Assembly (NCBI GenBank): GCA_029261355.1
Contig: JAJDBM010000061.1
Coordinates: 62,001-126,000, forward strand
DNA: 64,000 nucleotides
Reading direction: 5' to 3'
Source of the DNA: Nitrospirales bacterium
GTDB lineage: Bacteria; Nitrospirota; Nitrospiria; Nitrospirales; UBA8639
Made by a program: the position numbers and the translations under genes
Part shown: positions 42,081-52,036 of the stretch, piece by piece
Layout: each line of letters starts with the position of its first letter
Numbering within the stretch: position 1 is the stretch's first letter
The notes under the pieces: generated by a model
What the model saw: the letters and a program-made list of their open reading frames with translations, nothing else
Told to the model about the DNA's origin: nothing
The model's database searches: none

Positions 42081-42110
42081 TTGACAGATTTCCTCAATAA
42101 TACGTAGTAT
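42081..42110 (+). promoter_or_regulatory. Sigma-70-type promoter of the His-rich small gene
   Basis: A perfect -35 TTGACA (42081-42086), 18-bp spacer and -10 TAGTAT (42105-42110). Transcription would start near 42117, which places the ATG at 42109 outside the message and supports the ATG at 42133 as the start. Confidence 0.6.
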
Positions 42111-42132
42111 GCTCAATAAGATCATAAGCGCT

Positions 42133-42447
42133 ATGAAACGAATTCTACACCAAGCTCTCGCTCTTGCCCTTCTTACCTGCTTTCTATTTGTTAGTAGTAC
42201 CCTATCGGCTCAAGCCGCCAAACACAGCACACACCATACTCATCATAAAGCAACCACACACAGCAGCAATCTTTGTTCGTGGATGTGTGCAGCTGGGCAG
42301 GTCCTTCAAAGCGTTGACCTAGAAATACGTGAACCGTCTCTTACTAGTCTTGCCGATGATGTCAGCATCCCGGATTCAATAAAGATTGTCGACTCACACC
42401 CCTCCCAATCTCGCGGTCCCCCGAATCACATCTTCAGATCCATCTAA
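42133..42447 (+). CDS. Small secreted His-rich protein with CSWMCAAGQ motif
   Basis: 104 aa from the ATG at 42133, chosen because a consensus promoter overlaps the alternative ATG at 42109 and the shorter form has a clean signal peptide (MKRILHQALALALLTCFLFV, cleavage near SAQAA). The mature N-terminus is histidine-rich (HSTHHTHHKATTH), followed by the motif LCSWMCAAGQ with two cysteines and a methionine. The rest is unremarkable. The His cluster and C-x2-M-C look like metal ligands. It stands first in a row with a Met-rich outer-membrane protein and a cupredoxin-like protein. A copper role is inferred, not shown. Confidence 0.7.
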   Translation: MKRILHQALALALLTCFLFVSSTLSAQAAKHSTHHTHHKATTHSSNLCSWMCAAGQVLQSVDLEIREPSLTSLADDVSIPDSIKIVDSHPSQSRGPPNHIFRSI

Positions 42448-42604
42448 TTTTTCTTTGCCGTTAACAAACGAATTCACCTGACCACGGTCGGGAAAAAATT
42501 ATTTAATATTGTCTGCCTTGAGACACTATTCAGTTCATCACTGAATATGGTGTTTCTTGTTTTTATTCATAGTTTATATTTCTCACTACGTAAGGATGTT
42601 GTAC

Positions 42605-43774
42605 ATGTTTTACCACTTCACAAAATTTCGAAAAATAAGTATGGCACAGGTCAGCCTTATTTTTGCTTGCGTTTTCACCCTCTCCATTCAGAGCAGCCAA
42701 GCGTTTGCGGCTTTACTAGATGGAATGTTTGATGATTTCGAGGAAACCTTATCGCAATCACTGTCCAAAAATGGAGAGAAGCTTACAGTTGGTAATTTCT
42801 ACACACCAGAACGATCAGACTCTCACGGACCAATCGGGATGATGGGTGAACATACCCACAATGAAGGGGAATTCATGTTCTCCTACAGATACATGCAAAT
42901 GGAAATGGATGGAATCCGCGACGGAACATCGAGCCGCTCCCCAATGGATGTACGTAATCAAGGCTTTGGCGTCGTCCCGACATACATGAGAATGCAAATG
43001 CATATGTTTGGAGCCATGTATGGCGTCAATGACACGCTCACTCTTACAGCCATGCTGCCCTATATTCGTAACACTATGGATCACGTAGCTGGCATGCCTC
43101 TAGGTGCAGCAAAATTTCGGACGAAGACAGAAGGAGCCGGCGACTTAAAAATAGGATCACTTTGGCGGTTATATGCCTTCGAAGCACCGAGCATCGGTGC
43201 CCACCGTTTTCACATGAATTTCACCGTGAGTCTGCCAACAGGCGATATCACTCATAAAGGAACAACACCGGTAGGGGTCATCAGACTTCCTTATCCAATG
43301 CAATTAGGATCAGGAACGGTTGATTTAATGCCTGGGCTAACCTATGGCGGAGCAAAAGGAAATGTCTCATGGGGTTTTCAAACTCTTGGAACCTACCGAA
43401 TCGCTCGCAATAAAGCTGGGTATTCAAAAGGTGATGCCTATGAAGTTGGCGCCTATGGGGCCTATGCATGGACAAATTGGGTGAGCAACTCTATCCGATT
43501 TAAATGGAAACAGTGGTTTGACTACGATGGAGAAGATAGAAGAATTTCTCAAACATTACCCAATGGCAGTCGATCAGTATTTACCGCTGACCCAGACCGT
43601 CGAGCAGGAAAACAACTCGACATCATGGGTGGTGTGAATTTTTTACTACCTGAAATTCTCGGCCTCGAACATCGACTCGGTATCGAAGGTGGCGTGCCCA
43701 TCTACCAAAACTTAGATGGCCCTCAATTAGAAACAGACTGGGCTTTCACCATTGGATGGCAAGTCATCAATTAA
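42605..43774 (+). CDS. Met/His-rich outer-membrane protein (Phenol_MetA_deg/transporter-like barrel)
   Basis: 389 aa from the ATG at 42605, which has AAGGA upstream; longer starts at 42557 and 42596 are possible. A signal peptide (about 12-36, ending QAFA) precedes a predicted outer-membrane beta barrel of the PF13557-like type, with alternating strands to a C-terminal FTIGWQVIN. The first extracellular or periplasmic part is strikingly rich in methionine and histidine: MMGEHTHNEGEFMFSYRY, MQMEMDG, YMRMQMHMFGAM (about residues 79-138). Such motifs bind Cu(I) in known copper proteins. Flanked by His-rich and cupredoxin-like secreted genes, so metal uptake or export across the outer membrane is a reasonable guess. 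Confidence 0.78.
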   Translation: MFYHFTKFRKISMAQVSLIFACVFTLSIQSSQAFAALLDGMFDDFEETLSQSLSKNGEKLTVGNFYTPERSDSHGPIGMMGEHTHNEGEFMFSYRYMQMEMDGIRDGTSSRSPMDVRNQGFGVVPTYMRMQMHMFGAMYGVNDTLTLTAMLPYIRNTMDHVAGMPLGAAKFRTKTEGAGDLKIGSLWRLYAFEAPSIGAHRFHMNFTVSLPTGDITHKGTTPVGVIRLPYPMQLGSGTVDLMPGLTYGGAKGNVSWGFQTLGTYRIARNKAGYSKGDAYEVGAYGAYAWTNWVSNSIRFKWKQWFDYDGEDRRISQTLPNGSRSVFTADPDRRAGKQLDIMGGVNFLLPEILGLEHRLGIEGGVPIYQNLDGPQLETDWAFTIGWQVIN

Positions 43775-43834
43775 GACACCGATAGAAATATAAACGTTTG
43801 CACGGGCTAGGGCCTCGGCTAAAGGAACTCAACT

Positions 43835-44641
43835 ATGACACAGTTATTCAAAAGTGGAATGATCTGTTTGCTCATCGTTCTTGGATCATGGAATGTGGGA
43901 TTGACCTATGAAATCACCGATATTGCTCATCCAGGTATCCTGAGTGGCCAGATCACCTTTACCGGTAAGGTCCCAGCCCCGCGAACCTTTACAGTACAAA
44001 AGAATCCAGAAGTTTGTGGAGAGCAAAGATCCTTAACTAAAGTTTCGGTGAATGACGGAAAGTTACAGGGAGTCGTCTTAGCGCTAGAGGGAATACAGAG
44101 CGGCAAAGCGTACGACGAGAAACATTTTCAAGCGAACCTCCCCGGAAAAGGTGAGTTTCACTATGCCCCTGGAAAGAAACTTTCACTTGATGTGCAAACC
44201 AAAAATTGTAACTTTGGCCCATTTACTGGCGTTGTCGCTCGAGACGAACCCATTCGATTTTCGAACAATGACCCAATGAAGCACACCCTGCACACTTATG
44301 TACGAAGGGGCACAAAAGCCACCATTCTCAAGACAGTACATAATCAAGGAATCCCTCCAGCGGGCACCATCGAAAAAACCTTCCCTCACAAAAAACTGAA
44401 AACCACAGGTGTAGTTGCGGTGACCTGTGATCGGCATGACTTCATGGAAAACTGGCTCTATGTTGTCGATAACCCTTACTTTGCCATATCAGATGTAAAC
44501 GGACAATTCAGCATAGACGGAATCCCACCTGGTCACTTTCGCTTAATAGCATGGCACCCCGTTCTTGGCACGCAACAACAAGAAGTCGTGATTGAATCGA
44601 ACGGGAATGGTCATATCCAGATAGAGTTCATTAAAAACTAG
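43835..44641 (+). CDS. Secreted cupredoxin-like protein with carboxypeptidase-regulatory-like C-terminus
   Basis: 268 aa. Signal peptide (about 1-25). The middle (about 35-210) looks like a cupredoxin or plastocyanin fold with possible type-1 copper ligands His150/His153 (MKHTLH), Cys198, His201 and Met204 (TCDRHDFM). Cys61 and Cys125 may form a disulfide. Residues 215-266 form a carboxypeptidase-regulatory-like beta sandwich (DVNGQFSIDGIPPGHFRLIAWHP). A paralogue with the same layout is encoded at 50873-51658. AAGGA precedes the ATG. Probable periplasmic electron-transfer or copper-binding protein; function unproven. Confidence 0.8.
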   Translation: MTQLFKSGMICLLIVLGSWNVGLTYEITDIAHPGILSGQITFTGKVPAPRTFTVQKNPEVCGEQRSLTKVSVNDGKLQGVVLALEGIQSGKAYDEKHFQANLPGKGEFHYAPGKKLSLDVQTKNCNFGPFTGVVARDEPIRFSNNDPMKHTLHTYVRRGTKATILKTVHNQGIPPAGTIEKTFPHKKLKTTGVVAVTCDRHDFMENWLYVVDNPYFAISDVNGQFSIDGIPPGHFRLIAWHPVLGTQQQEVVIESNGNGHIQIEFIKN

Positions 44642-50872: not shown

Positions 50873-51658
50873 TTACGGTTTCGCCTTCTGAGACGTGTGA
50901 TACACAAAGGGAACCGTCTTTTTATCATTCGCGCCTACCGTCAAAGATTGTTCCAAATAACCCAGAGAAGGATGCCAAGCACTTAAGGTATAGGTCCCTG
51001 CTGGAATTGAATCAATTTGAAAATGTCCTTTGGCATCAGTCGTTGCAAAATAAGGATTCAGCGGCACGAGAACCCAGGCTTGCATATATCGATGTTGATC
51101 GCACTCGACCATGACCACCCCACTTGTCCGAGTTTTCAATTCTGTCGTCGCTTCTTTTCCATTGGGCAGGTCAGGTAAATGAAATAGAGGGATTCGTCCC
51201 TCGTTGACCATTTCCCAACCTCGCAAAGGATGGAGAACCGTATCATTCATGAGCAGGCGAAGGGGAGTTCCATTCATGCCAACCATAACGCGTTGGTCAA
51301 ACTGACATCGGTTCACGGTCAACGTGGGACCGTCAGCCGCAGCAGCCTTTCCACGCTCCAGACCTTGGATATAAATCACAACATCGGCCACAGCGTTGTT
51401 TTCAGAAACACGGGCACGAGGCAATATAACGTTGCCATCTTTATCCGCAACCGAGGCACAATGTTTGGGGTAGGCCCCCATCGTCAATTTATAAGAAAAA
51501 GGAGGAGGTGCTGGGCCAATGAGCGATATGGTCCCATGAATTGAAGCACCATCCTTGACCGTTATTTCTTCATACGCATGAGCATTACCACTTAACAGAA
51601 AAATAAATCCGACCAGAAATATCAATACCACTCGACTCACATACGTCACGTCCCTCAC
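50873..51658 (-). CDS. Secreted cupredoxin-like protein with carboxypeptidase-regulatory-like C-terminus (paralogue)
   Basis: 261 aa from a GTG at 51658, chosen for AAGGAG seven bases upstream and because it leaves a normal signal peptide (SRVVLIFLVGFIFLLSG, cleavage near AHAYE); an ATG at 51745 is also in frame. Possible copper ligands are His143 (TVLHPL), Cys186, His189 and Met192 (ECDQHRYM). Cys67 and Cys118 match the cysteine pair of the paralogue at 43835-44641. Residues 203-255 are the carboxypeptidase-regulatory-like sandwich (FATTDAKGHFQIDSIPAG). It heads a three-gene operon with two orphans. Confidence 0.8.
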   Translation of the reverse strand: MRDVTYVSRVVLIFLVGFIFLLSGNAHAYEEITVKDGASIHGTISLIGPAPPPFSYKLTMGAYPKHCASVADKDGNVILPRARVSENNAVADVVIYIQGLERGKAAAADGPTLTVNRCQFDQRVMVGMNGTPLRLLMNDTVLHPLRGWEMVNEGRIPLFHLPDLPNGKEATTELKTRTSGVVMVECDQHRYMQAWVLVPLNPYFATTDAKGHFQIDSIPAGTYTLSAWHPSLGYLEQSLTVGANDKKTVPFVYHTSQKAKP

Positions 51659-52036
51659 AGTAAAGCTCCTTCTTGAAAATAAGCCACTATCCGCTAAGCA
51701 CATAGATGGCAACCATACTCTTACATAAATATTCAACTCAAGCACCCAACAGTTCTCTGCGCCTGCTATAGAGTCAAACGCAATATTCTCAAAACTGACC
51801 GAGTTATCATTTCCATGATGACCGGTCCTGTACCAACCTGCCTACGTGTTTGCCTTTTTAGAACTGGTTCTATGGCGCGAGTCCACAATGGATATGTAAG
51901 AATCCAGAAACCCACCCAAAACCAACCCTATAGGTCTAAAATCTTGAGTCGCTAGACAGATTTTAAATTGGGTAGCAGATAAACAGTGTAGCAAAACCTC
52001 TCACTTAATTGCTGACTTCTGAGTCATGGACTAATT
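51659..52036. other. Intergenic region
   Basis: 378 bp between minus-strand genes. No supported frame. It should hold the promoter of the cupredoxin-like operon. No strong hairpin noted. Confidence 0.4.

Follow-up and report, generated by a model that had tools for sequence, protein, structure and literature searches.

Background

The closest described relatives of the locus reported here are operons that begin with a small exported protein, a copper-responsive arrest leader (PMC9426467, PMC9973294, PMC12992588). In CruR of Bordetella pertussis 45 residues separate the Cys pair from the C-terminal end motif, a spacing that varies by no more than one or two, and the Rho site is a C-over-G bubble within an unstructured stretch (PMC9426467). 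The CutF leader of Rhodobacter capsulatus is a second case, and CutF-like leaders may sense metals other than copper (PMC9973294), a point that we count against a copper reading of the locus reported here. RAPP and RGPP have been reported as strong arrest motifs that are avoided in proteomes (PMC12992588).

Little is known about copper passage across outer membranes in environmental bacteria. Nitrifiers, like their relatives, rely on copper enzymes. Here a three-gene cluster (A, B and C) of a Nitrospirales bacterium, one that resembles nitrite oxidisers, is compared with these systems. The window is the whole 64,000-nucleotide stretch of DNA that was analysed, from a genome of 4.6 Mb. With a probability of about 0.6, we consider A-B-C to be a copper-acquisition operon attenuated through leader A.

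Results and discussion

A conserved three-gene operon

The ORF list and translations place A, B and C on the + strand. The features of the locus, in window positions, are:

42081 to 42110, + strand: weak sigma-70-like promoter site (TTGACA-18-TAGTAT, 10/12) just before leader A
42133 to 42447, + strand: leader A, 104 aa, with export signal, His stretch, CxxxC, 41-residue linker and C-terminal RGPP
42274 to 42288, + strand: CSWMC (CxxxC), candidate metal-sensing motif of A
42412 to 42423, + strand: RGPP (CGC GGT CCC CCG), candidate arrest motif, 7 residues from the end of A
42380 to 42457, + strand: C-over-G bubble (C 0.35, G 0.12) at the 3' end of A, candidate Rho loading site
42448 to 42604, + strand: A-B intergenic region, 157 nt
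42605 to 43774, + strand: B, exported outer-membrane beta-barrel with Met-rich first strands, Phenol_MetA_deg/COG4313/FapF-like
42872 to 43090, + strand: three Met-rich strands of B with conserved Met (residues 78-150, 377-aa numbering)
43835 to 44641, + strand: C, exported, with a plastocyanin/amicyanin-like domain (residues about 113-212) and a C-terminal carboxypeptidase-regulatory-like domain
44282 to 44446, + strand: span of the type-1 copper ligand set of C (H150, 44282-44284; C198, 44426-44428; H201, 44435-44437; M204, 44444-44446)

Sigma-70-like sites are no commoner here than by chance, and that at 42081-42110 is the only one near A. As a 112-aa reading of A from 42109 begins inside this promoter-like site, the ATG at 42133 is the preferred start. 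For B, the ATG at 42605 was taken instead of the ORF finder's TTG at 42557 because of an upstream AAGGA and a better fit to relatives.

The nearest named relative of B is in Nitrospirales bacterium NPIRA04 (79% protein identity), and strong matches to B occur in about forty of the 147 genomes of the order, nearly all from one family. C lies downstream of B, within 500 nt, at 36 of the 37 B loci examined, the sole exception being in a genome with a completeness rating of 78%. A is found no more than 500 nt upstream of B at every one of the 36 Nitrospirota loci whose contig extends far enough upstream for it to be counted. Since this order is kept across genomes, the cluster is not a product of chance, and as the flanking genes vary while the trio is constant, it is held together by selection rather than by general synteny. 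Judged by gene order, A-B-C is a conserved operon. The original prediction, which had grouped the three adjacent same-strand genes as a set, named the lack of a conserved neighbourhood across relatives as grounds for refutation; it is not refuted on this count, the trio being conserved.

Gene A encodes a candidate copper-sensing leader

Neither A nor B could be usefully named from NCBIfam and Pfam scans of the window proteins. The His cluster and CSWMCAAGQ earlier reported for the 104-residue A protein are both present. A first set of 44 homologues was picked on similarity alone. A single His and the Cys pair of CxxxC do not vary across this set, and R.PP is kept in 43 (R, P and P each in 43). 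A second set was selected by motif, from all loci, as CxxxC followed by R[AGSD]PP at any spacing from 20 to 60 residues. Its 86 distinct ORFs have a spacing of 41 (70 ORFs), 42 (14) or 44 (2) residues, and R.PP lies 1 to 11 residues from the C-terminus in all but one of them; the export signals of leaders were judged by eye. The 41-residue linkers share a mean identity of 21%, with 64% of pairs under 20%. Such a near-fixed length, with the sequence free to vary, would be needed by a nascent chain that reaches through the ribosome tunnel.

Among 923 other, neighbouring genes, only 5 encode R[AG]PP. In three of these it is C-terminal, and the three encode small proteins resembling degenerate leaders in which one Cys is lost, two of them in the same genome as the window. 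Leader-like ORFs of that genome at 7636-7938 of L129, flanked by a PepSY gene and an ExbB-like gene, and at 8508-8813 of L130 have kept R[AG]PP and lost one Cys of CxxxC.

A thus carries a Cys pair at a near-fixed distance from a C-terminal R[AG]PP in a small exported ORF, and is the first gene before transporter/copper genes and a long intergenic region. From its anatomy, A is probably a copper-sensing leader and not a metal carrier, its own translation being paused to switch on B and C. The original prediction had described the set as having no sensor; this is not supported, as A, with CxxxC and a C-terminal arrest motif typical of a nascent-chain leader, resembles one.

On a reading that follows the same prediction, A would be a mature metal-binding protein of the periplasm that passes copper between B and C. 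The export signal, the His stretch and the two conserved Cys would suit such a carrier, but it would have no need of a low-identity linker of near-constant length (41-44 residues) or of a terminal R[AG]PP, a motif otherwise almost absent from neighbouring genes. Furthermore, CruR was undetected by proteomics (PMC9426467) and exported CutF is rapidly degraded (PMC9973294), so a carrier role for A is improbable. What stands of the proposed copper-handling system is the conserved unit and features that point to copper; what does not is A as a metal-handling protein.

A Pfam scan of A gave no match to DUF2946 (PF11162), the leader profile of CruR and CutF. Among the leaders DUF2946 is matched more often than any other Pfam family, though always weakly (9 of 45 with E no higher than 1; best E 5.8e-4). 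With ten members scanned singly the best score was 18.3 bits, against a Pfam cut-off of 23.7 bits, which was passed in none of the 148 genomes of the phylum. As the cut-off is not reached, A is not filed as DUF2946; it is likened by its anatomy to CruR and CutF, and would work as they do. No paper joining Nitrospira with DUF2946 leaders was found in the literature searched, which took in a minority of the subscription journals.

The 3' end of A and the A-B gap

Of 200 shuffles of the region 42330-42460, 196 are more folded than the native sequence (z +2.0). Leader ends have a C minus G of about +0.175, compared with about -0.02 (sd 0.10) for other genes. Much of this excess follows from amino-acid content, which explains about 0.12 of it and leaves 0.05 (0.07 in the family of A); the leaders are mutually related, so that the p-values of this last analysis overstate the independence of the data. 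The 45 nt downstream of leader stop codons are also shifted in C-over-G. No intrinsic terminator was found on the + strand between A and B. Since the end of A has a C-over-G bubble in an unstructured stretch, as at CruR, it is a reasonable inference that Rho acts there.

A family of leaders in the Nitrospirales

A-type leaders were detected at a loose threshold in 145 of the 147 genomes of the order, with five in the genome of the window. Genes headed by the leaders read out encode TonB receptors, TonB, AhpC/SCO-like redoxins, lipoprotein-like proteins and barrels, a range similar to the genes listed for CruR homologues (PMC9426467). Two further leaders of the window's own genome lie at 43.9 and 45.1 kb of C5 (L128), one directly after genes resembling TonB-ExbB-ExbD and the other before a gene for a 249-aa exported-looking protein with no Pfam match. 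At five loci (L096, L100, L108, L143 and L146) at least three leaders stand in series, most with their own downstream gene; these clusters include an unnamed barrel family with the mature start SCGxVxCFVVIGSQQQ.

RAPP/RGPP leaders are frequently found upstream of sec genes (PMC10987492), and secA adjoins a leader cluster in one f3 locus checked, as might be expected if A were a secretion monitor of the SecM/ApdP type rather than a metal sensor. However, this secA is on the opposite strand and is not headed by a leader; being divergent from the leader cluster, its closeness was set aside as a sign of such a function. The genes that leaders do head are outer-membrane and redox genes, and it is hard to see what a pure secretion monitor would do with the invariant CxxxC and His. 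It is therefore very improbable that A monitors secretion.

B is a Met-rich outer-membrane barrel

The Met-rich stretch claimed for B was recovered: 14 of its 21 Met lie within residues 60-150 (377-aa numbering of the model; hypergeometric p = 2.5e-5). The Met within any one of the first three predicted strands (4, 5 and 2 residues) have the same parity, for which the chance is roughly 1 in 256. M85, M87, M89, M116, M118, M120, M138 and M146 are kept in all eight aligned homologues, which come from SAR92, Opitutia and other Nitrospirota.

Structure models of B and C were built on shallow alignments (5 and 3 rows) of sequences from the window and related loci. That of B is a beta-barrel with an N-terminal segment, of low confidence (mean pLDDT 62), and its best matches among solved folds are the COG4313 channel and FapF (4rl8, 5o65). 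Sequence searches of the PDB found no usable relatives. B itself gave no match to Phenol_MetA_deg (PF13557), which is matched by 16 of 23 B homologues (best E 2.9e-9). CopB (PF05275) is absent among the Pfam matches of B at E up to 1 and of the 23 homologues at E up to 0.1. B is probably a distant barrel of the Phenol_MetA/COG4313/FapF type.

A B-type barrel with an N-terminal NosL domain is encoded in four other Nitrospirota genomes (L131-L134; E 6e-17 to 4e-12). As NosL is described as a Cu(I) chaperone (PMC6530538), no other single observation ties B to copper as well as this fusion does. B-type Met-rich barrels are also encoded in SAR92/Cellvibrionales (L003 and L004). That of L003, from SAR92, adjoins sarcosine oxidase genes, with no copper genes there, which we count against a copper reading. 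Also counted against it is that no match to a haem-copper oxidase was found in the genome of the window, where there is a 356-aa open frame of multicopper-oxidase type.

C has the ligand set of a type-1 copper protein

The cupredoxin-like pattern attributed to C, a His followed by Cys-x2-His-x2-Met, corresponds to H150, C198, H201 and M204, which are invariant in 19 of 19 orthologues and are also kept in the six paralogues aligned from its own genome. C therefore has the His-Cys-His-Met ligand set of a type-1 copper protein. The C-x2-H-x2-M spacing is that of amicyanin. Residues 113-212 of the C model align to plastocyanins and amicyanin (1aaj, 7pcy) with Z up to 7.7; the model is of low confidence (mean pLDDT 50), and although the top VIA matches are mostly cupredoxins, Z below 8 can be reached by unrelated folds. 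The C-terminal part resembles carboxypeptidase-regulatory domains, and PDB sequence searches with C gave mainly short matches to this part. The genome contains 13 stretches matching C, in about eleven genes; one paralogue in the window (50873-51745, - strand) has the same His, Cys, His and Met set.

Proposed mechanism and direction of control

We propose that leader A is translated and its export begun. When copper is low, the ribosome would stall on the C-terminal RGPP and shield the C-rich 3' end of the A mRNA from Rho, so that RNA polymerase could continue into B and C. Copper binding to CxxxC of the emerging chain, with His, would release the stall; Rho could then terminate transcription in the 157-nt A-B gap, shutting off B and C. 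Copper would cross the outer membrane through the channel B, passed along by its Met/His-rich first strands, and would be taken up in the periplasm by C, acting as a type-1 copper protein.

Control may conceivably have the opposite sign, copper causing or prolonging the stall, which would open the downstream gene and induce B and C for detoxification, as with R. capsulatus CutF. A shares CxxxC with CutF, CruR having CXXC (PMC9973294, PMC9426467), and the gap (42448-42597) folds better than shuffles (z -2.7), as a masking stem-loop needs. However, no conserved fold of the leader end or the gap emerged from an alignment of four close relatives, which was poor and about half identical even within the genus. 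The CruR type is the better fit for a C-over-G bubble and a gap of 157 nt. Elsewhere in the A family the genes headed by leaders include those for TonB and TonB receptors, which serve import. Copper induction of B and C is thus unlikely. Import, with repression by copper, is preferred because the sister leaders head TonB-type uptake genes and the CruR-like features point to copper repression.

A wider picture is put forward tentatively, as somewhat less likely than not. The Nitrospirales may have a copper attenuation network, with their own leader family, invisible to DUF2946 and with several members per genome, through which nascent chains that sense copper would govern how strongly outer-membrane channels and redox proteins are expressed. 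B may in addition be a TonB-independent outer-membrane copper port with a Met ladder, linked to NosL in relatives. If the operon is read correctly, it would reveal a family of outer-membrane channels linked to copper, recognisable from their regulator and from NosL fusion, and would extend nascent-chain metal sensing to a phylum in which the standard profile finds none. A His stretch, CxxxC, 41 or 42 residues and R[AG]PP could then serve as a marker for other copper-linked genes.

Comparison with known systems

CruR of the B. pertussis operon cruR-bfrG-bp2921 (PMC9426467) is one of the closest known counterparts of A. Both are small exported first ORFs with a Cys pair at a near-fixed spacing from a C-terminal end motif (RAPP in CruR, RGPP in A), followed by a long intergenic region (162 nt and 157 nt, respectively). 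Both have a C-over-G bubble at the leader end, which in CruR belongs to a Rho-dependent terminator, and the second gene of both operons encodes an outer-membrane protein, a transporter in the case of CruR. They differ in that CruR has CXXC and 45 residues, whereas A has CxxxC and 41 and falls short of the DUF2946 cut-off. The second gene encodes a TonB receptor in the CruR operon and a Met-rich barrel here; the third encodes PepSY_TM and a cupredoxin, respectively.

CutF (PMC9973294) resembles A as an exported leader with CxxxC, a Pro-rich C-terminus and a gene for a periplasmic copper protein downstream. CutF induces its operon with copper by means of a stem-loop, whereas none is evident as a conserved element in the A-B gap, and its leader is followed by a multicopper oxidase gene rather than a barrel gene.

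The RAPP/RGPP arrest peptides (PMC12992588, PMC10951233) are likewise encoded by small exported ORFs that lie upstream of metal and redox genes and carry R[AG]PP close to their end. The A family is defined for Nitrospirales and has in addition the His stretch and CxxxC, with arrest in A predicted. COG4313/Phenol_MetA_deg and FapF barrels are the best fold matches of B, which differs in its Met-rich first strands and in the NosL fusion of its relatives. C shares with amicyanin and plastocyanin the H, C-x2-H-x2-M ligand set and, to judge from a match of its weak model, may share the fold; unlike them it is extended at the N-terminus and ends in a carboxypeptidase-regulatory-like domain.
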